Translations under genes and position numbers: made by a program
DNA from: a virus
Direction: 5' to 3' (one strand)
DNA: 20,391 nucleotides
Virus record (IMG/VR): IMGVR_UViG_3300022846_000008
Coordinates: 1 to 20,391 of that record
The notes under the pieces: model-generated
What the model was told of the DNA's origin: nothing
Databases searched by the model: none
What the model saw: only the letters and a program-made list of their open reading frames with translations
Part shown: positions 2,633-17,278 of the stretch, piece by piece
How positions within the stretch are numbered: the stretch's first letter is position 1
Layout: each line of letters begins with the position of its first letter

Positions 2633-5443
2633 CTACAGTATTGAACTGTTTATTGTATCTGATAATAATATATTATCAGAGAAATTATGAATATAAAATG
2701 TTGTCATCTCGTCGGATAGACTAAATGAATCCTGTAAATTGCGAAGGTAAATAGTTATGATATCATCAGACAAACCCAATGAATCTTGTAAATTGCGAAG
2801 ATAACTATTCGGCGCTATAATATCAGTTATGATATCATCAGACAAACCCAATGAATCTTGTAAATTGCGAAGATAACTATTCGGCGCTATAATATCAGTT
2901 ATGATATCATCAGACAAACCCAATGAATCTTGTAAATTGCGAATACGGGATATTACCGTTGCTATATCATCGGATAGACTGAATGAATCATATAAAAGAA
3001 TCTGACTTGCTTCCCAAATCTCTGTTGCTATATCATCGGATAGACTGAATGAATCTCCTAAACGAATATGACTTACTTCCAAAATCTCGGCTACCATCTC
3101 ATCAGACAAACCTAACGAATCATGTAAAAGAACATGGTCTATTTCCAAAATCTCGGTCCACACTTCATCAGATAGATTGAATGAATCTCGCAATCTATAC
3201 ATATGAATTATCCCTTGTGTAATCTCAGTTGTAATCTCATCGGATAGATTTAATAAGTCCTGTAAACAAAAAGAATGTTTTCTTACAATATCATCGGATA
3301 GACCTAATGAATCTTGTAATCCACGTGTGTAATTTCCTATTGCTGTCATTTTATCTGATAAAACTAATTTATCTTCTATTTTTTGTATCTCTGACCAGAT
3401 TCTTTTACCCAATTGAAATAAAGTAGAATAAGTCCGTTTTTTTATTTTGTTTTTGGATATTACTTTATCTTCCCATTCAATATTTTTTACCATCCATTGA
3501 AAACTATTACGGATAATTTTTTCCCCAAGATTATAATTTTGAGATCCCCACATTTCCAGATTTTTCTCCCCTTTTCCTTTGCCATATTTCCCATTATAAT
3601 AATTTATCAAATCCAACATTCTTTCTTTTCTTGCCGTGAAGATTTGTGAAGATAAATCATCAAACTTTATTTTCCTGATTATGGTACCCTCTTTTCCTAC
3701 ATTTTTTTCAGATAACCTTTTCCCGCCACCAAGATGAGGTTTTCTGTCATTAAATTTGACGGTTATTCCATTCTCATAATCAAGATACCAAACATTATCC
3801 TCTAATATGCATAATTCTTTTATAATATCCGAGACAACCTGATTTATGAAAACTTGATTCAGATGTCTTAAGAACCTATACATATCGTAAATAAGTAAGT
3901 CATAATAGTGATAATATACTTGTTCATAATGCTGCGTAGTTGAATCTAATATCCAAAAGTTCCCAGAATTTGGATCTTTAAATTCAATAGTTGAGATCGG
4001 TTCAACGTCATAACCTATTATTTCGTTGAAATCAATAATTGGATTGTCTAAAATATATGTATGGTTATCAATGTCCCCATTCCCTGAATATGAACCGTCA
4101 CTCATAACATATAAATTTTTCAAATTGTATCGGTCTATGATAAAGTAAGTACCATTATTAACAGAATTTTTATGTTGCAATTCTTCTACTTTATCAAATT
4201 CAAACCAAATCATCTTCACGTTGAATTGGCTTCCTGATGTTCTGAGCCAAATTCTATAAACACGTAATGTTTGAGGATTTTCCTGCTCATTTTGATGTAT
4301 GAAAGCAAGGTCTTCCGGGAAACATTCTAAAGATCCAAGATTAAGAACTTCCCATATATACACTTCCTTCAATTCACCATTTTTAATTTCATAGACGCCC
4401 GCATGGTCATCATCTTCTTTTACGAGTATAAAAACCCTATTTCTATATTCAACAGCCCAATTCTCACCTGTTATAACATAGTCAATGATTTGCTTTCCTT
4501 CAAGCTCAGGAAATTGACCTGAATAAGTCTCTACATTGTCAAAAATCATATCTTCAAAGTTGATTTGAGAATTATCAATCGGTATTTTATATTTTGCAAT
4601 GAGTTTTTTTGTATCAGTTTCAATAGAAAGAATAAATTCATTGATTGGTTTGTCTCCGCCTGTGGAAAATTTATATTTTGCTTCCTCATCTTCAATCTGA
4701 AGGATTTCACCTAAATACCATCCATTGTCTTTGAATAGTGTTGATAATTCGTAGCCAGTGACTGTAATGTAATCTTTTGCCGGAAGTTTATTTCTCACAC
4801 TTCCGTCATTATTAACAAAATATCTCATTGATTTATCGCCACTATCGAGATAAAAGGTCATATCTAATCTGAATATCTTTTCGCTTTGACTTAGAAAATT
4901 TATCGGTGAAAAATATCCCGACTGTGTATAGTTCTTTATTACAAATGAAATAGTATCTGATTTGAATGTAAACAAGTCATCTTCAATATCACGTCTCAAA
5001 TTATCGATCTCTTTGATATATTTTGTATCTAATGGCAGTGAGTCTATTTGAGTAATTGATACATGAAGAATATTTCCTGCAAATCCAGCTTTTCCTTCTA
5101 CCCTGAAAGCAACAGCGTCTGATGTAAGAACAACCGTCTCATAGTATATCCCATTTGCCCTTCTCGGTTCTCCATAGTTATGACCAACCTCATAATCTAT
5201 TATTACCCATACGATGCCATCGGATTCATAATTTTGAACTTCATAAGCAACCAAATATGTTCCTGCTGGGATTGATACTCCCTGTACTAATGATGTCGAA
5301 TAACTTGATTGCCGCCCACTACAAGTTGCAATGTTCCGAGCTATTGACCAACCATCGCCAAGACTCCAAAAATCAGCACCATCGGCAAAGTTGCCGTTGT
5401 TGATGTAATCCTGCTTCCAAAATACTGTGATATCTGGCTTCAT
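2633..5443 (-). CDS. Baseplate hub / tail-associated protein with carbohydrate-binding-like N-terminus and DSxxLSD repeat tail
   Basis: 936 aa; the start overlaps the stop of the tape measure gene (ATGA). Three regions are visible. (1) Residues ~12-135 begin NGNFADGADFWSLGDGWSI and continue as a beta sandwich, the pattern of jelly-roll carbohydrate-binding domains in phage tail tips. (2) Residues ~140-680 include DDLFTFKSDTISFVIKN, typical of baseplate distal-tail/hub proteins, and VSDIIKELCILEDNVWYLDY, which resembles the Tal/gp27-like hub pattern where a strand pair follows a helix. (3) Residues ~689-936 are about 12 repeats around DSxxLSD. The gene directly follows the tape measure, where Dit and Tal normally lie, and it may combine both roles with host binding. 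No lysozyme or peptidase motif was seen. The hub call is an inference; the repeat array is seen directly. Confidence 0.75.
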   Translation of the reverse strand: MKPDITVFWKQDYINNGNFADGADFWSLGDGWSIARNIATCSGRQSSYSTSLVQGVSIPAGTYLVAYEVQNYESDGIVWVIIDYEVGHNYGEPRRANGIYYETVVLTSDAVAFRVEGKAGFAGNILHVSITQIDSLPLDTKYIKEIDNLRRDIEDDLFTFKSDTISFVIKNYTQSGYFSPINFLSQSEKIFRLDMTFYLDSGDKSMRYFVNNDGSVRNKLPAKDYITVTGYELSTLFKDNGWYLGEILQIEDEEAKYKFSTGGDKPINEFILSIETDTKKLIAKYKIPIDNSQINFEDMIFDNVETYSGQFPELEGKQIIDYVITGENWAVEYRNRVFILVKEDDDHAGVYEIKNGELKEVYIWEVLNLGSLECFPEDLAFIHQNEQENPQTLRVYRIWLRTSGSQFNVKMIWFEFDKVEELQHKNSVNNGTYFIIDRYNLKNLYVMSDGSYSGNGDIDNHTYILDNPIIDFNEIIGYDVEPISTIEFKDPNSGNFWILDSTTQHYEQVYYHYYDLLIYDMYRFLRHLNQVFINQVVSDIIKELCILEDNVWYLDYENGITVKFNDRKPHLGGGKRLSEKNVGKEGTIIRKIKFDDLSSQIFTARKERMLDLINYYNGKYGKGKGEKNLEMWGSQNYNLGEKIIRNSFQWMVKNIEWEDKVISKNKIKKRTYSTLFQLGKRIWSEIQKIEDKLVLSDKMTAIGNYTRGLQDSLGLSDDIVRKHSFCLQDLLNLSDEITTEITQGIIHMYRLRDSFNLSDEVWTEILEIDHVLLHDSLGLSDEMVAEILEVSHIRLGDSFSLSDDIATEIWEASQILLYDSFSLSDDIATVISRIRNLQDSLGLSDDIITDIIAPNSYLRNLQDSLGLSDDIITDIIAPNSYLRNLQDSLGLSDDIITIYLRNLQDSFSLSDEMTTFYIHNFSDNILLSDTINSSIL
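2636..3380 (-). repeat. Array of about 12 DSxxLSD protein repeats (coding)
   Basis: The C-terminal quarter of the 936-aa protein is made of units of about 16-24 residues. Their cores read DKLVLSDKM, DSLGLSDDI, DLLNLSDEI, DSFNLSDEV, DSLGLSDEM, DSFSLSDDI (twice), DSLGLSDDI (three times), DSFSLSDEM and DNILLSDTI. Each core is followed by a variable linker. The conserved part is L-x-D-[SL]-[LF]-x-LSD-[DE]-[IMV]. The downstream (left) units are nearly identical at the DNA level; the upstream (right) ones have diverged. Confidence 0.9.
2753..2943 (-). repeat. Perfect 72-bp tandem repeat, about 2.65 copies
   Basis: The 72-bp unit starting at 2761 recurs without a mismatch at 2833 and, in part, at 2905, ending at 2943 where the third copy diverges. 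It encodes LQDSLGLSDDIITDIIAPNS plus YLRN, 24 residues, inside the DSxxLSD array. Perfect identity suggests a recent duplication or continuing homogenisation. Confidence 0.92.
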
Positions 5444-8400
5444 AAGTTGGTTTTCTTCATTACTTTTAATCCTTCATTGACAACAAATGCAAGGTCTCTT
5501 TGAGAGAATTTTCCCATCACTTTATTATCTATTAGAATTGTGGTTTCTTTGCTTGCTACGAGCTTTCGTAGCTGTGATAATTCGCTTTGTATTCCCGAAC
5601 TATCAAAGGAACTGTAGCTATTTGATACGTTTGAAATATGTGGAACTGGAGGAATATCTTTAATAAGGTTATTGATATTCGTTATGTTATTTTCATTTTG
5701 AGTAACAGCGGGAACGCCCTTTTCGGAAACTGGAGACGCATCTCTAATAAGATTCTCAATGTTCGTTATATTCTTAACTTCATTCTTAGGAATCACATTA
5801 ACAAGCTCACCAGATTGAAGAAACATCGGATAGGTGTCATTATCATACCCGGGTGGAACTATGAAGTTTGAAATACCCTTATTAGCACCAATGACGCCGG
5901 GTCCAAATAGACTACCAATAAATTTAAAAATTCCCTTAAAACCCCCCATGATTTCAAGCGCCATTTTTTGAGCTTCTATTCTTATCAATTCTCTTATAAC
6001 AGAATTGGCAAATTGATGCCAAGCGTTCGTGAGAGCATCTGTTAAACTCTTATTCTCAAAAATCATATCTGTTACAAATCCATCAAAGAAATTTGTCATA
6101 TTATCATACATAATCCTTGAAAGTTCTGTTTGTTCAATTATCTGCTCTTTTTTCCATTCAGCAAATTCTTTCTCAGCTTGTTTTTTCTGTTCAACCGCTA
6201 TTCTGTAATTGTCTGAATCCCTTGTATATTCCTTTTCAACAAATTTGAGATAACCATCCCATGCAGTTGTGAGTTCCTCACTCACATTCAGTCCGAGACT
6301 TTTCATTGTTTCGAGTTTTGAAAAAAGATTCTGAAAGTCATCCTCATTATATAAGAAAAGCGGTTTGATTAATTGAATTGGTTTTAAGGCAAGATCTTCA
6401 ATGTTTCCCTTTTCAATTGCCTCCCTAATACTCTCATCAACTTGAGCAATCTTCATTTTGACTGCTATTTCGATTTCCTCATCATCTATGTTTTTAAGTA
6501 CGGTCTGCAACTGCTCATAAGAAGCCGTGTCGAGATCGAGTCCAACTTGCTGTATTAATTTTGTTTTACCAATCTCATATGCTTCTTTCTGTGCTTCATT
6601 CAATTGTTCAAGCCATTTAACATAAGTTATACTTTCCCTGCTTGCCGTTATTGTAATACCTTCAATTGTAACCGGACCCTGAGCATTTAATTGTTGATAA
6701 ACTTGCTGTATTTCTTTTATCTTTTCTAAAGTCAAGTCAATCCCAATCTGTCTTAACTGAAATTGAATCTTTTTAGGTTTTTGTGTTAAAGTAATAAATC
6801 CCGACAATGAGGTTACAAGATAATCAATTGCATTCCTGTACTCATTTATATTTCCTGCACTTTCTATGCTTGTTTTGTTTAAATTATCATAAGATGCTTT
6901 ATATTCGTTTTGTATCGGGATACCTTTTCTTCTTAATAAATCACTATAATATGCCACTTGCTTATTATATGCGACTAAGGTTATCTCTCCACTTTTATAT
7001 CTCTTTTTAAGATCAACCAATTGTTTTTTTGTTTTTTCTTGAAGATTATAGAAATCACCATAGGTTTTTATGGCTTCTTCATTCCTTTTTCTTGCGTTTT
7101 CAAGTGCATTTCTGGCATCTTCCAGCTTATTAACATAGTCGTCATAATCTTTTATTTGCCCTTTTATCCACTTCTTTTCAGCTATTCTTGCCTGCTGTCT
7201 TTGTAAATCAATAAGACTTCTCATCTTTGTAATGTTTACATCAAGAGCACCCCCGTATTCGTCCCAAGCAGTAACTGCTCCAGGAACTATTATAGCAAGT
7301 GCTTTTATTGTTTCATTCAGATCCTCTTGTTCTTGAGTCGTCCTGTTTACCTTAGAACTCAGCGAAATATACTTTTTTTCAAGAGAGGCGTACTGTTTTT
7401 CTATTACATTAAATCTCTCAATCTCCCTCTTTAGATTCGGGAATAGCTTGTTTATCTCTTTTGTGGCGTCATGTACAATCTTAACAATAAAATCACCGAT
7501 TGGTTTCATCTTCTTTGCAATATTATTCTTGAGGATTGCCATTTGGTTTGTTGTATCTTCGACCATAATTATAAAGCCATCCGTCATATTGCCTGTAGAA
7601 TTAACGATTTTGTCCGAAGTTTCTATGAAGTTTATGCCTTCATTTGTCATGGCTGCCAGCAAACCTATTAGACCTCGAACATTCGGAAATAGTTCCATCA
7701 GTTTTTCTTTTTGCCCCTTAGTTGCAGTAGCCATCTGATTTAACATATACGCAAGTCCTTTTGTTTTCAAGGTGGCTACATTAAACTCAATTCCCATCTT
7801 TTTAGCTGCTTCTGCTGATTCTGCACCCTCTTTTGAAGCCCTAAGTAATGCAGTAACAAATCCACGAATACCAGTCGAAACAATGTGTGGCTGGATTTTC
7901 TTAACCGCTTCTGCATAAAAAGACGCTAAATCATTGAAGCTCATCCCTGCTTCGGCTGCAAGTCCCGTAACCATTGAGAGAGAGGAAGCGAGTTCTTGCA
8001 TTTTAACCTTACCAAGTTTAACTACAGTGAATAATTTATCTGCGATTTCAGTTGCAGTTCCCGCTGCTTTTCCATAAGCATTCATTACATAAGTCAACAC
8101 ATCGGCTGCATTGAAAGTGTCGGTTATGGTTGCCGTTGCAAGTTTTGCCGACACACTTAATACGTCAAGTGCTTCTGCTCCATCATATCCAGCAGATACA
8201 ATCTGATAATATGCTTTTACAAGTTTACTCGCAGCGTCCGGAACTTGAGTTGATAATTCTAATATTGCTTCTGAAATACCCTCAAAATTCTTTTGCGTAG
8301 CATAGGAAATTGTTTGAACCTCTTTCATGGCATGTTCAAACTCAAGAGACATATCATATGCCCCTTTAATGATTTTCTTGAACACGAGAGCTGCAGCGAA

Positions 8401-8541
8401 CCCTATTGCTGCAAAAATATCCATTCGTGATATACTACCCATGAGACCACGAAGGATACCTTTTGTCGCATTAGCACCGGCAGCAACACCTTTAGTATTT
8501 ATTCCGGCTTTCCAGTACAGCGAATTTCCCGTGTTAAGCAT
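5440..8541 (-). CDS. Tail tape measure protein (TP901 core type)
   Basis: 1033 aa. The N-terminal ~300 residues carry the TP901-type tape measure core: FEHAMKEVQTISYATQKNFE, ELSTQVPDAASKLVKAYYQI, YDGAEALDVLSVSAKLATAT, FTVVKLGKVKMQELASSLSM and AGMSFNDLASFYAEAVKKI. A hydrophobic segment (IFAAIGFAAALVF) lies near residue 45. The middle is long and helical with many Lys, Glu and Gln (coiled-coil-like, about 370-560). A second hydrophobic Gly-rich segment (GIFKFIGSLFGPGVIGANKG) lies near the C-terminus. In such phages the protein sets tail length and leaves with the DNA; about 1.5 Å per residue predicts a tail of roughly 155 nm. Its ATG lies inside the last codons of the chaperone frameshift product (ATGCTTAA), so translation is probably coupled. 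No peptidase motif was recognised. Confidence 0.93.
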   Translation of the reverse strand: MLNTGNSLYWKAGINTKGVAAGANATKGILRGLMGSISRMDIFAAIGFAAALVFKKIIKGAYDMSLEFEHAMKEVQTISYATQKNFEGISEAILELSTQVPDAASKLVKAYYQIVSAGYDGAEALDVLSVSAKLATATITDTFNAADVLTYVMNAYGKAAGTATEIADKLFTVVKLGKVKMQELASSLSMVTGLAAEAGMSFNDLASFYAEAVKKIQPHIVSTGIRGFVTALLRASKEGAESAEAAKKMGIEFNVATLKTKGLAYMLNQMATATKGQKEKLMELFPNVRGLIGLLAAMTNEGINFIETSDKIVNSTGNMTDGFIIMVEDTTNQMAILKNNIAKKMKPIGDFIVKIVHDATKEINKLFPNLKREIERFNVIEKQYASLEKKYISLSSKVNRTTQEQEDLNETIKALAIIVPGAVTAWDEYGGALDVNITKMRSLIDLQRQQARIAEKKWIKGQIKDYDDYVNKLEDARNALENARKRNEEAIKTYGDFYNLQEKTKKQLVDLKKRYKSGEITLVAYNKQVAYYSDLLRRKGIPIQNEYKASYDNLNKTSIESAGNINEYRNAIDYLVTSLSGFITLTQKPKKIQFQLRQIGIDLTLEKIKEIQQVYQQLNAQGPVTIEGITITASRESITYVKWLEQLNEAQKEAYEIGKTKLIQQVGLDLDTASYEQLQTVLKNIDDEEIEIAVKMKIAQVDESIREAIEKGNIEDLALKPIQLIKPLFLYNEDDFQNLFSKLETMKSLGLNVSEELTTAWDGYLKFVEKEYTRDSDNYRIAVEQKKQAEKEFAEWKKEQIIEQTELSRIMYDNMTNFFDGFVTDMIFENKSLTDALTNAWHQFANSVIRELIRIEAQKMALEIMGGFKGIFKFIGSLFGPGVIGANKGISNFIVPPGYDNDTYPMFLQSGELVNVIPKNEVKNITNIENLIRDASPVSEKGVPAVTQNENNITNINNLIKDIPPVPHISNVSNSYSSFDSSGIQSELSQLRKLVASKETTILIDNKVMGKFSQRDLAFVVNEGLKVMKKTNL
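5654..5775 (-). repeat. Short internal duplication near the tape measure C-terminus
   Basis: The residues read NITNIENLIRDASPV and, about 30 residues later, NITNINNLIKDIPPV. The two stretches align without gaps. Asn-Ile-Thr-Asn runs of this kind are frequent near tape measure C-termini. The divergence shows that this is an old duplication or convergence. Confidence 0.6.
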
Positions 8542-9183
8542 TTAAGACGCCTATGATGTTATTGTTTTTTGACATATCAGCTTCCTTGATCTTGTCTTTA
8601 GTCGGTTGTGGTATGCTTGCCATGTACATGATAAGATTTGCATAACTTATCTCATGTAGAATTTCATCAATACTGAAATCGAAGGTTCTTTTTATGTTGC
8701 CGATTAGTTGCCAGGGGTTTATTTCTTCTTGTTTAGAGCCATCCCCTTCAGAGAGATGGTGCTTGCGAAAAAATAGTCATTCCCCATCAACCGCCTTATA
8801 AGTAATACTAATTGAAGGCATTCTTTTGAAGTCAGATTTTGATCCAAAAACTTCATCAGTTTTTTTGACGGAGATTTTCCCGTGTTTTCTATTCCATACG
8901 CTACTATCTTTACCAATCGGTTTTTATTTTGAATGATATTATCATCCACCAAGAGAGCTAAATCTTTATCCTTTCCAGGTTCTTGCGTGAACTGAGAATC
9001 CATCTCATTAATAGTTTCAGATATTTTCATTAGAGCAGCAAGAACAATCGGATATATCTTGTATTTCTTCACAGATGAAATTATACGTAACCGCTGTAAA
9101 ATGTTTAGCTTCGCAACGGTTACGCTAAAATCAACACCCTCTTGCAAAATTGCTTCGGTTTCAGTTCGATTTAATTCTTTCAT
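8534..9183 (-). CDS. Tail assembly chaperone, -1 frameshift product (gpGT-like)
   Basis: A -1 frameshift at T TTT TTC (8773-8767) joins the first ~139 residues of the short form to 77 residues read in the -1 frame, ending at TAA 8536-8534: about 216 aa in total. The extension has no usable start of its own near its beginning. It reads HHLSEGDGSKQEEINPWQLI, then IDEILHEISYANLIMYMAS. The pattern PWxLI ... [FW]xxxxILxEISxANLxxxxAS is the usual form of the second chaperone domain (lambda T-like), which contacts tail tube subunits. The extension fills the otherwise unexplained 180-nt gap before the tape measure and ends 8 nt inside its start. Both reading frames and the slip site are seen; use of the frameshift is inferred. 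Confidence 0.82.
8719..9183 (-). CDS. Tail assembly chaperone, short form (gpG-like)
   Basis: 154 aa, mostly helical, with no recognised sequence family. The ATG at 9183 overlaps the tail tube stop (TAATG). Position between the tube protein and the tape measure, small size and a second overlapping reading frame are the classic marks of the tail assembly chaperone pair (lambda G and GT). The C-terminal stretch of the 0 frame after the slip site (ASTISLKGMALNKKK) is a short basic tail and gives the short product. The chaperone is thought to coat the tape measure and recruit tube subunits, and is absent from the mature virion. The call rests on synteny and the frameshift signal rather than on similarity. 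Confidence 0.8.
   Translation of the reverse strand: MKELNRTETEAILQEGVDFSVTVAKLNILQRLRIISSVKKYKIYPIVLAALMKISETINEMDSQFTQEPGKDKDLALLVDDNIIQNKNRLVKIVAYGIENTGKSPSKKLMKFLDQNLTSKECLQLVLLIRRLMGNDYFFASTISLKGMALNKKK
8739..8773 (-). promoter_or_regulatory. Programmed -1 ribosomal frameshift signal: slippery heptamer and hairpin
   Basis: The 0-frame codons TTT TTC preceded by T (TAT codon) form T TTT TTC at 8773-8767, a perfect X XXY YYZ site. After a 7-nt spacer (8766-8760) a hairpin can form: CCATCTC (8759-8753), loop TCTGAAG (8752-8746), GGGATGG (8745-8739). It has seven pairs, one of them U-G. The -1 frame is open from a TGA just upstream of the site to the stop at 8536-8534. Spacer length and stem position match known bacterial and phage signals. 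Confidence 0.8.
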
Positions 9184-9950
9184 TACGCTACAGCGTATGT
9201 GATTATTTTGGAAACAACATTTGAATTGTCATTTTCAGCTTTGGTTGCAACTGCACGTACAAGAACATCCTCTGTAATAGTTACCTCTGCCGAGTATGCT
9301 GTTCTATAATCACCAGTAGGATCAAGACCCGTAATGCTGTATTTGATTGCAGAACCACCAGTAGCACACGTAATGGTGAATTTATCTACAGCAGATTGAG
9401 TGATAATAGGATCAATAACCTTACCTGAGATATTCTCAGGATTGATATATACTGGAGCAAGTGCAACATCACCTGCGTCACGTGGAGTAATAACATCAAC
9501 TTCAAAGTCGATAGTGCCAGGGTCTTTTTTGTTGAATTTTCCGTTAAATGCAGCAGAAATTGATGCACGTGGAATATAATAAACCCTTCGTGTGCCATTA
9601 TAGACCTTTGATTTGATCTTTACACTTCTCTCAATGTCATGTACATCAGTTGGTGCATCCCATCCACTACTTGCATTCTCTGCTCCACCAAAAGCAAGGA
9701 TGAGATTAGCATTGGACATATCCCGTGTGGAAAAGGCTAGAGTTTTTGCACCACCTCTGTTTTTCAGTATCATGTCCGGTTCATCTGATTCTTCATCTAT
9801 GATTTCAGTTTTCGTAGGTAATGGAAAACTGAGCAATGCGCTTTCTTCAACGAAGTGTCCAAGTGGTGTAAGTGATCCACCCATCGTACCATCAGCGCCA
9901 CACGCTCCGATTTCTATCGATTCAAGTCCGAGTAATCTTATTTGACTCAT
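9183..9950 (-). CDS. Major tail tube protein with C-terminal Ig/chitobiase-like domain
   Basis: 255 aa. The ATG at 9950 has AAAAGGAG 6 nt upstream, lying inside the end of the 67-aa gene. Residues 1 to ~175 form the tail tube domain: it starts MSQIRLLGLESIEIGACGAD and contains strand-rich segments with RRVYYIPRASISAAFNGKFN and GTIDFEVDVITPRD, typical of tube proteins of siphoviruses. Residues ~177-255 form a separate domain: PIITQSAVDKFTITCATGGS, then AIKYSITGLDPTGDYRTAYS and a strand ending VLVRAVATKAE. This matches the chitobiase/beta-hexosaminidase C-terminal (Ig-like) pattern, in which I-x-Y-T-x-D-G-x-DPT precedes the last strands. Such surface domains decorate tail tubes of many phages and may bind carbohydrate weakly. 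It lies just upstream of the chaperone and tape measure, as expected. Confidence 0.87.
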   Translation of the reverse strand: MSQIRLLGLESIEIGACGADGTMGGSLTPLGHFVEESALLSFPLPTKTEIIDEESDEPDMILKNRGGAKTLAFSTRDMSNANLILAFGGAENASSGWDAPTDVHDIERSVKIKSKVYNGTRRVYYIPRASISAAFNGKFNKKDPGTIDFEVDVITPRDAGDVALAPVYINPENISGKVIDPIITQSAVDKFTITCATGGSAIKYSITGLDPTGDYRTAYSAEVTITEDVLVRAVATKAENDNSNVVSKIITYAVA

Positions 9951-14872: not shown

Positions 14873-15119
14873 AAGTCCACCCGTCTATATAATTACCGAC
14901 AATTGAATGAGTACAACCACATTTGCTACACGTATAATTACATGTTCGTATATTCCTGTCCGGATTAATGTTTTCACCATCTTCATTATACATTGGCGCA
15001 AAATACATGGCTGTTATCGTACCAGCCATCTCAGTTCGTATTGTTGGCACACAACAATATGGACATACTGGGATATCCCCAGTAAAAATAACCTTTTTAT
15101 TCCTTGTTTCTTTTGTCAT
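14862..15119 (-). CDS. Small zinc-ribbon protein, 85 aa
   Basis: Its ATG overlaps the TAA of the minor head gene (TAATG). Two Cys pairs, CPYC (C19, C22) and CSKC (C64, C67), frame a short beta region and suggest a single zinc-ribbon fold; C23 and C69 lie beside them. The rest has strands with TRNKKVIFTGDIPV and a loop EDGENINPDRNIRTC. Small zinc ribbons like this are common in phage head modules as accessory genes without a known role, and a structural or nucleic-acid-binding role is possible. No other domain fits in 85 residues. Confidence 0.75.
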   Translation of the reverse strand: MTKETRNKKVIFTGDIPVCPYCCVPTIRTEMAGTITAMYFAPMYNEDGENINPDRNIRTCNYTCSKCGCTHSIVGNYIDGWTYDK

Positions 15120-17278
15120 TATTTCACCTTTAATATTGATTTCTTTACCTTGAAATCCTCTGTTAAATTATCTCTTACAAAATAAGGCTTCGTTTTATAT
15201 TTTGCTATTTTACCCTTGTTTTTCTCGATCCAGTTCTCCGCTGTCTTTGGAATAGTTCTCACATATCTCTGAGGTCTTATCTTACCCCCGTTTATGTGGT
15301 CGATAAACTCTCTCTTGTTTAATAATATTGAGGTTGAGTAACAAAAACAGCCCACATGCCATCCACCAAAGACAAATCCCTTCGGATAACGACCCTGCAA
15401 ATCATCGCAGTTATGCACAACAAATCCTTTTATAACAAAACTATTATCTTCTTCTACTGCCAAATTATATTTTGTTATCGGTGCTTTATTTTCGGCTGTC
15501 CAATCTTTTATTTTTGTAATTTTTACATTCATAAATTCATAATTACCAGAATGATTATTTATAACTCTATCTATCTCATTACTGCATAAATTTAAATGTT
15601 TTCTTATCTCATTATCAGTAAATCTTAATACGGTAAAACCTTTATTCTCTATTTCTTTTTGCCTTTTTAAATCTTTTTCTTTATCTTGATGCCAATACCA
15701 TCCGTCACATTCCAATGCTATTTTATAATCGGTTAAAACAAAGTCTATGAAATATAACCTTTTATCTCCATTTTTACGATAAACATCCCTTTCAAATGGG
15801 TAAGTATGAATATATTTTATTCCCTTTTGCTTTAACAACCATTCCATTTTCTTTTCTATGAATGTAGAATTTTTATTCTGAGCTAATTTTTTCATCGCTT
15901 TAATATTATTTTTAGCTTGCTGAAATGGATGTGTTCCATTCTTAACTTTTTCTCTCATTGTTATCATTAAATTTTTTATTGCTTTCTGCCTATTTTCAGG
16001 ATTAATTAAATTATCTACATTTTTACCGCTATCTACCCAATCTTTAAAATAAGGGATTCCACCCTTGCATCTTTTTTTTGCCTTTTTTGATATATTTTCT
16101 CTATGATTAGGATCGCTCCACTGTTTTTTAGTTATCGCTTTGCTTGCACAAGATTTAGAACAATATTCTCTATAATATGGAATTAATTTCCCACACCATT
16201 TACATCTTGAAGCTAATATCTTAACTTTATCTCCAACTTTTATATCTTTTGCTGGAATCCATTTATTATTTATTAAAAAAGGATGATTCTCTGTTGAGCT
16301 TATTTTGTTAGATTTTGCCCTGCTATCATATTCACATTTATATTCAATAGTCCTCATTTTTACTTTATGAGTTGTAGTTTTATATTTTTTAGTTACTCTT
16401 CTGAATTTTCCCTTATGAGTTAAAACTAAATCATTTTCTTTTATTTTATAAATAGGAATCCAGCCCTTTGAAGTTAAAATTCTATACTGACCTGATATAA
16501 AACACATGTCCATTATTTCGTGAGAAGCAGACAGATGAACCTCTATCCCTGTAACGAATGGCATTTGTTGTCTACGTGTGAAATCCGATAATCTATAAGC
16601 TAAGTTTGTTTCATTTGCAGACAGACGGAGGGCGTTCTTATATGAGCTTCTATAAACACCACTTCCCGGAGGGTATGCTTTGGCTGCTTTGCTCAAAACA
16701 AGTTTTCCTTCAACCCTAACTCTTCTGAATAGTTTGTGTGGTTCGTTAAGATAATTCCTTATATCTATGGATATTCCGGCTGCACTTTTGCCTGCGGATA
16801 TACCCGAACCAAGGTAAAGCTCGATCTGACTTTTTGTTGCTTCGGTTAAATTCCAAATTCTTTTACTGAGATTTAACCCCGCCTCTGTTCGTTTCAGGAA
16901 TTCATTGAGTGCTTCAAGATTGAGATTGTTATACGAGGTTATTATCTTTTGGGATATTTTGATTCCTTGCGTGTACATTGCAACAAGTTCACTGTTCTTT
17001 TGGTTCGCTAAATTCCAGCCGTATTTAACGTCCCTCTGGATGGCAGTATCGATCTCTTTGTATAATCTCTCAAGTGTCTTGGTTATTTGACGCTCAACGC
17101 CCTTATTTGACCGAAATAACATACCTTCTTTCATTATGTCGGGATAGTTAATGTGCTGATTTGCTATTCTTTTAGATAGTTCCTTTATTGCACTTTCAAG
17201 AATTGCCTTAATTTCTGCTTCTCTTTTGACAATATCTCTGAAAATACTGTCTGCATATAGCTTTTCTATGTCTATCAT
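15119..17278 (-). CDS. MuF-type minor head protein (phage head morphogenesis) with in-frame intein
   Basis: 719 aa as encoded. Residues 1-258 and 624-719 are host protein (354 aa after splicing, a usual length for the family), and residues 259-623 are an intein. The N-extein is helical, and includes GISIDIRNYLNEPHKLFRRV and SSYKNALRLSANETNLAYRL, as in the MuF / SPP1 gp7 family. The joined motif reads SASHEIMDM + CDDLQGRYPKG ... GWHVGCFCYS, matching the family pattern SxxHxxxDxCxxLxGxxYP ... HPxCxC, with HVGCFC in place of the usual HPNCRC. These proteins bind the portal or inner head, and some carry toxin domains; none is seen here. The start overlaps the 123-aa gene (ATGA). It lies after the portal, as expected. 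Confidence 0.9.
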   Translation of the reverse strand: MIDIEKLYADSIFRDIVKREAEIKAILESAIKELSKRIANQHINYPDIMKEGMLFRSNKGVERQITKTLERLYKEIDTAIQRDVKYGWNLANQKNSELVAMYTQGIKISQKIITSYNNLNLEALNEFLKRTEAGLNLSKRIWNLTEATKSQIELYLGSGISAGKSAAGISIDIRNYLNEPHKLFRRVRVEGKLVLSKAAKAYPPGSGVYRSSYKNALRLSANETNLAYRLSDFTRRQQMPFVTGIEVHLSASHEIMDMCFISGQYRILTSKGWIPIYKIKENDLVLTHKGKFRRVTKKYKTTTHKVKMRTIEYKCEYDSRAKSNKISSTENHPFLINNKWIPAKDIKVGDKVKILASRCKWCGKLIPYYREYCSKSCASKAITKKQWSDPNHRENISKKAKKRCKGGIPYFKDWVDSGKNVDNLINPENRQKAIKNLMITMREKVKNGTHPFQQAKNNIKAMKKLAQNKNSTFIEKKMEWLLKQKGIKYIHTYPFERDVYRKNGDKRLYFIDFVLTDYKIALECDGWYWHQDKEKDLKRQKEIENKGFTVLRFTDNEIRKHLNLCSNEIDRVINNHSGNYEFMNVKITKIKDWTAENKAPITKYNLAVEEDNSFVIKGFVVHNCDDLQGRYPKGFVFGGWHVGCFCYSTSILLNKREFIDHINGGKIRPQRYVRTIPKTAENWIEKNKGKIAKYKTKPYFVRDNLTEDFKVKKSILKVK
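15410..16504 (-). other. Intein with Vsr/DUF559-like nuclease and zinc-finger segment
   Basis: 365 residues (259-623 of the host ORF). The N-terminal block begins CFISGQYRILTSKGW, with IPIYKIKENDLVLT after it; block B contains STENHPF and DIKVGDKVKI; the C-terminal blocks read YNLAVEEDNSFVIKGFVVHN and end His-Asn before Cys+1 (C624). These are the residues needed for splicing. In place of a LAGLIDADG nuclease there is a Cys4 motif (CKWC-x10-CSKSC, residues 359-377), a Lys-rich SDPNHRENISKK segment resembling NUMOD-type DNA-binding repeats, and a DUF559/Vsr-like domain (about 472-572) with D512 in FIDFVL and E523/D525 in ALECDGWYWH, the PD-(D/E)xK site of this fold. It is more AT-rich than the flanking extein in the lines I counted by hand. 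It looks intact, so a spliced, homing-competent intein is likely. Confidence 0.9.

Follow-up and report, generated by a model that had tools for sequence, protein, structure and literature searches.

Is the short open reading frame (ORF) that lies between the tail tube and tape-measure genes of this virus the whole of a tail assembly chaperone gene, or does the gene continue in a second reading frame? The ORF belongs to a 20,391-base virus record (the window, meaning the whole stretch of DNA analysed), whose minus strand carries a block of head and tail genes: portal, MuF-like head protein, capsid, small connector genes, a probable tail tube, the chaperone ORF and the tape measure. The tape-measure protein (5440-8541, minus strand; 1033 aa) matches PHROG 991 (E 8e-35) and PF10145 (E 7e-27). 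The probable major tail tube protein (9183-9950, minus), which has a C-terminal Ig-like domain, matches PHROG 6767 (E 5e-18), PF13290 (E 9e-7) and, weakly, NCBIfam tail_tube_6XGR (E 0.002). The chaperone ORF (9183-8719, minus; 154 aa) sits between these two genes, which is the position of lambda G/GT, and shares one base with the gene that precedes it (TAATG). Between its end and the tape measure, no minus-strand ORF of at least 50 aa fills positions 8718-8542, and the original prediction of an empty gap was right.

The neighbouring genes bear features of their own. The MuF-like head protein harbours an apparent in-frame intein (15410-16504, minus, within ORF 15119-17278; residues 259-623), which starts with Cys and ends with His-Asn before a Cys (PF14890, 42.9 bits, E 6e-11), holds a DUF559/Vsr-like endonuclease domain (PF04480, E 1e-12) and is also present in three related contigs (L018-L020). 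The C-terminal part of ORF 2633-5443 contains tandem repeats (2753-3187, minus) that encode LQDSLGLSDDI-like units, with one repeat of 72 nt (2.7 copies, 100% identical) and one of 66 nt (3.5 copies, 76% matches). The tail tube protein is 27-28% different in contigs L003 and L016, and in L003 the chaperone gene beside the divergent tail tube gene is identical to that of the window in DNA. Since the capsid protein of both contigs is 99-100% identical to that of the window, these sequences suggest that the tail tube gene was exchanged or diversified on its own.

Codons 137-139 of the chaperone ORF read TAT TTT TTC (8775-8767, minus), and the heptamer T TTT TTC (8773-8767) is thereby in phase for a -1 shift, its X being a third codon base. 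Whereas the 0 frame stops at 8721-8719, the -1 frame has no stop from the codon just upstream of the heptamer to a TAA at 8536-8534. Read from 8773, it gives two Phe followed by the 77 residues of the extension (8534-8767, minus, stop included). The product of a shift would be 216 aa long, with 139 residues followed by 77 new ones. The fusion ends inside the start of the tape-measure gene: the two overlap by 8 nt (8534-8541, minus), with the tape-measure ATG (8541-8539) placed within the end of the -1 frame and 178 nt past the 0-frame stop. The heptamer, the length of the extension and this overlap had all been predicted from the bare sequence, and each is as described.

In a single sequence, these features weigh little. 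Canonical in-phase heptamers occur at 33 of 5998 codons in the window genes; at this rate, one would fall by chance within the ~19 codons that permit a working shift with a probability of about 10%, and the heptamer by itself is weak evidence. An open -1 frame of 76 codons arose in 116 of 20,000 dinucleotide shuffles (0.6%), and heptamer and open frame of one sequence, taken alone, are only suggestive.

A hairpin follows the heptamer after 7 nt (8759-8739, minus) and is a possible stimulator of slippage. Its spacer agrees with the original prediction; the stem, which had been given as 7 bp, has 8 bp, two of them G-U, and closes a 5-nt loop with a dG of about -10 kcal/mol. Against shuffles, the local 35-nt segment reaches a z of -2.0, and 3% of the shuffles are as good; over 60-67 nt, there is no excess stability (z 0.06 to 0.17). 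Conservation of the stem in relatives had been proposed as a check, and here the expectation failed: in a conserved-stem test the hairpin was absent from L007-L010 and L032. Some relatives have structures of their own (L032, L034, L021) and others have none. The hairpin exists but is weak and unconserved. A stimulatory RNA structure is not always present in -1 frameshifted tail assembly chaperones of the lambda G/GT kind.

Comparison with other genomes is far more informative. Wider relatives were gathered via tape measure, tail tube and extension searches; the three nearest viral contigs (L002-L004) are identical to the window over the chaperone gene and therefore say nothing about its evolution. 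In sixteen non-redundant loci, window included, both the first ORF and the second domain are homologous, and the second domain lies in the -1 frame. A blind test searched 395 genomes of one class with nothing but the 0-frame profile and yielded seven new plausible loci. Six of these have a -1 ORF that matches the extension profile (E 5e-14 to 3e-28), and five of the six also have a canonical in-phase heptamer (T TTT TTT/TTC, C CCT TTT or G GGT TTT). The weak N-terminal match L046 from the same search has no -1 domain, and L045, likewise from a profile search, was judged a false positive. Within the DNA examined, six tape-measure relatives (L025, L026, L029, L033, L036 and L011) show no member of the chaperone families.

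The -1 second domain is thus found in 22 non-redundant loci, in phages and prophages mostly of Bacteroidota, and in 20 of the 22 the corresponding position is occupied by a canonical in-phase heptamer, a conservation that had been named beforehand as a check. The heptamer itself varies: T TTT TTC in the window and L032, T TTT TTT in L014, L027, L030 and L031, A AAT TTT in L021/L022 and L034, and C CCT TTT in L007-L010, L023, L024/L035 and L037. Each lies at the same place, the conserved Phe that ends the N-terminal domain. This slip-site Phe (column F138) and the initiator Met are the only invariant residues of the 0-frame alignment, which makes F138 a simple annotation marker. The two exceptions have the -1 domain but no canonical site: L028 lacks the heptamer (site about 4640-4670), and L042 (1950-1970) carries TTG GGG GAT TTT, where the slip may be non-canonical. 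Loss of the heptamer with a broken -1 frame in close homologues, which would have spoken against the prediction, is not what the relatives show: they retain the -1 arrangement, and nearly always the heptamer. Judged from sequence comparison, the arrangement can be placed far beyond chance.

Among these relatives, L007-L010 share 39-40% of first-ORF residues and 32-37% of extension residues with the window, and in a DNA alignment with them and L032 the T6 core of the heptamer is invariant. Selection was measured in L007, L008 and L009, the divergent relatives closest to the window, rather than in the window lineage. Past the 0-frame stop, their extension has a pN/pS of 0.05-0.13 when read in the -1 frame; values for the control frame are 0.69 and 0.92, or synonymous changes are wholly absent. 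This purifying selection shows that in L007-L009 the extension is translated in the -1 frame. At about 4000-4980 of these relatives, a probable HNH-type homing endonuclease gene lies just upstream of the tape measure in L010, and in L007-L009 a glycosyltransferase-like gene stands there and parts the tape measure from the chaperone gene. The relatives being Riemerella and Bacteroides phages and prophages mostly of Bacteroidota, the host of the window phage, which is uncultured, is likely a member of the Bacteroidota as well.

Three other origins of the two-frame arrangement have to be weighed against ribosomal slippage. The second domain could be an independent gene that begins at its own start codon and is translationally coupled to the first ORF, and the records of Riemerella phage RAP44/CRP34 and Bacteroides phage p00 do annotate it as a separate ORF, whose ATG or GTG immediately precedes the conserved motif. 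In the window, by contrast, the earliest ATG, GTG or TTG of the extension frame comes 144 nt past the slip site and already falls within the motif, and in L014, L031, L027 and L032 none occurs until 126-165 nt. In these five loci no usual start precedes the motif, and re-initiation at such a codon therefore cannot make the whole domain. Moreover, in all 16 tabulated loci the -1 frame can be followed upstream across the heptamer without meeting a stop. A second domain with its own start in relatives had been named as the finding that would speak against a fusion; what the relatives display instead is the -1 arrangement. Independent initiation of the window second domain is unlikely on this sequence evidence, and we regard a coupled separate gene as a very improbable account of the locus.

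The fusion could also stem from transcriptional rather than ribosomal slippage, given that the window and several relatives have runs of T6 or longer. Relatives with A AAT TTT, C CCT TTT (L023) or G GGT TTT, however, offer only about four T, which we judge too short for efficient slippage, and yet still have an in-phase X XXY YYZ site; for this reason, slippage of the polymerase is more improbable still. As to a chance open frame, a pseudogene or a sequencing error, the rate of about 10% calculated above for a heptamer within the 19 permitted codons is in its favour. Against it, the gene is identical in three other contigs, the arrangement turns up again in phage records as well as in the genomes of cultured bacteria, and the -1 frame of relatives is under purifying selection, so that we consider an accident of this kind practically negligible.

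Matches to known families and folds give limited help with the identity of the protein. In profile searches, the first ORF weakly matches PHROG 12247 and 14983, and the extension matches PHROG 25685 (E 4.6e-5) and 11996 (E 1.3e-4). The chaperone has no match in Pfam or NCBIfam, a direct tblastn search of phage records with the 0-frame ORF was negative, and sequence and fold searches of solved structures likewise returned none. The predicted structure of the N-terminal part (mean pLDDT 73) was compared with viral models, and while the best fold matches are unnamed, several that do carry a name are tail assembly chaperones, with that of Serratia phage JS26 in first place (prob 0.90, E 0.06) and weaker matches behind it, among them Staphylococcus phage 6ec and a Rheinheimera phage. 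The fold search with the extension gave weak matches only; with this restriction, Myoviridae sp. ctPoO4 ranks high for both halves. The original prediction of a lambda T-like domain consequently stands as regards gene position and two-part design, but homology to lambda T itself is a weaker point; the proposed profile search of the -1 frame retrieved the two unnamed PHROG families and no named chaperone GT family. Architecture and position count more in the assignment as a chaperone than homology to a named family.

On sequence grounds, we propose that the gene very probably encodes a tail assembly chaperone in two forms, the longer of which would arise by a -1 slip at T TTT TTC. We infer that slippage occurs, how often, and what the two products do. 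Most ribosomes would stay in the 0 frame and make the 154-aa G-like protein, and a minority would slip back one base at the heptamer, the two Phe tRNAs re-pairing on TTT TTT, and would then read 77 more codons to complete the 216-aa GT-like fusion. If lambda is a guide, the N-terminal part common to both forms may bind the tape-measure protein and the extension may recruit tail tube subunits; the balance between the short and the long form would then matter for tail assembly. Because the -1 frame runs into the tape-measure start, and the 0 frame stops 178 nt short of it, translation of the tape measure in the window lineage might in addition depend partly on frameshifted ribosomes, which would tie its supply to that of the long chaperone. 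We consider this unlikely; tape-measure starts overlap like that of the window in L032 and L034 and do not in many relatives.

The original observation and its main interpretation are right, and the mechanism is ordinary, the -1 slip being well known from lambda and most long-tailed phages. A set ratio of both products, which are absent from the virion, is typical of the lambda G/GT kind, and the lambda gpG/gpGT system is reportedly treated, together with the -1 frameshifted tail assembly chaperones of other long-tailed phages, by Xu, Hendrix and Duda (2004). As in lambda, the window gene lies between tail tube and tape measure, has a short first ORF with a predicted -1 shift at a slippery heptamer close to its end, and has a C-terminal extension that ends beside the tape-measure start. 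It differs in its slip codons, which are Phe-Phe (T TTT TTC) in place of the lambda site G GGA AAG, and it has no detectable sequence homology to the named chaperone families. According to a review of these frameshifted chaperones (PMC5009743), the tape measure of lambda and most long-tailed phages is bound by G and GT alike, and it is through the T part that tail tube protein is recruited.

Closer to the window, Riemerella phages RAP44/CRP34 and Bacteroides phage p00 have a corresponding ORF pair upstream of the tape measure, with a -1 overlap and an in-phase heptamer (A AAT TTT and C CCT TTT, respectively). In both cases, however, the pair is annotated as two hypothetical proteins, and in RAP44/CRP34 an antirepressor and other genes intervene before the tape measure. 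Likewise, PHROG 12247, 14983 and 15994, matched by the first ORF of the window or its relatives, and 25685 and 11996, matched by the extension, are listed as separate families of 'unknown function'. Our results suggest that these families are the two halves of one frameshifted chaperone, which offers them a function. A long-known form of recoding would thereby reach a further set of phages and prophages, mostly of Bacteroidota, whose records, as far as examined, do not mark it.
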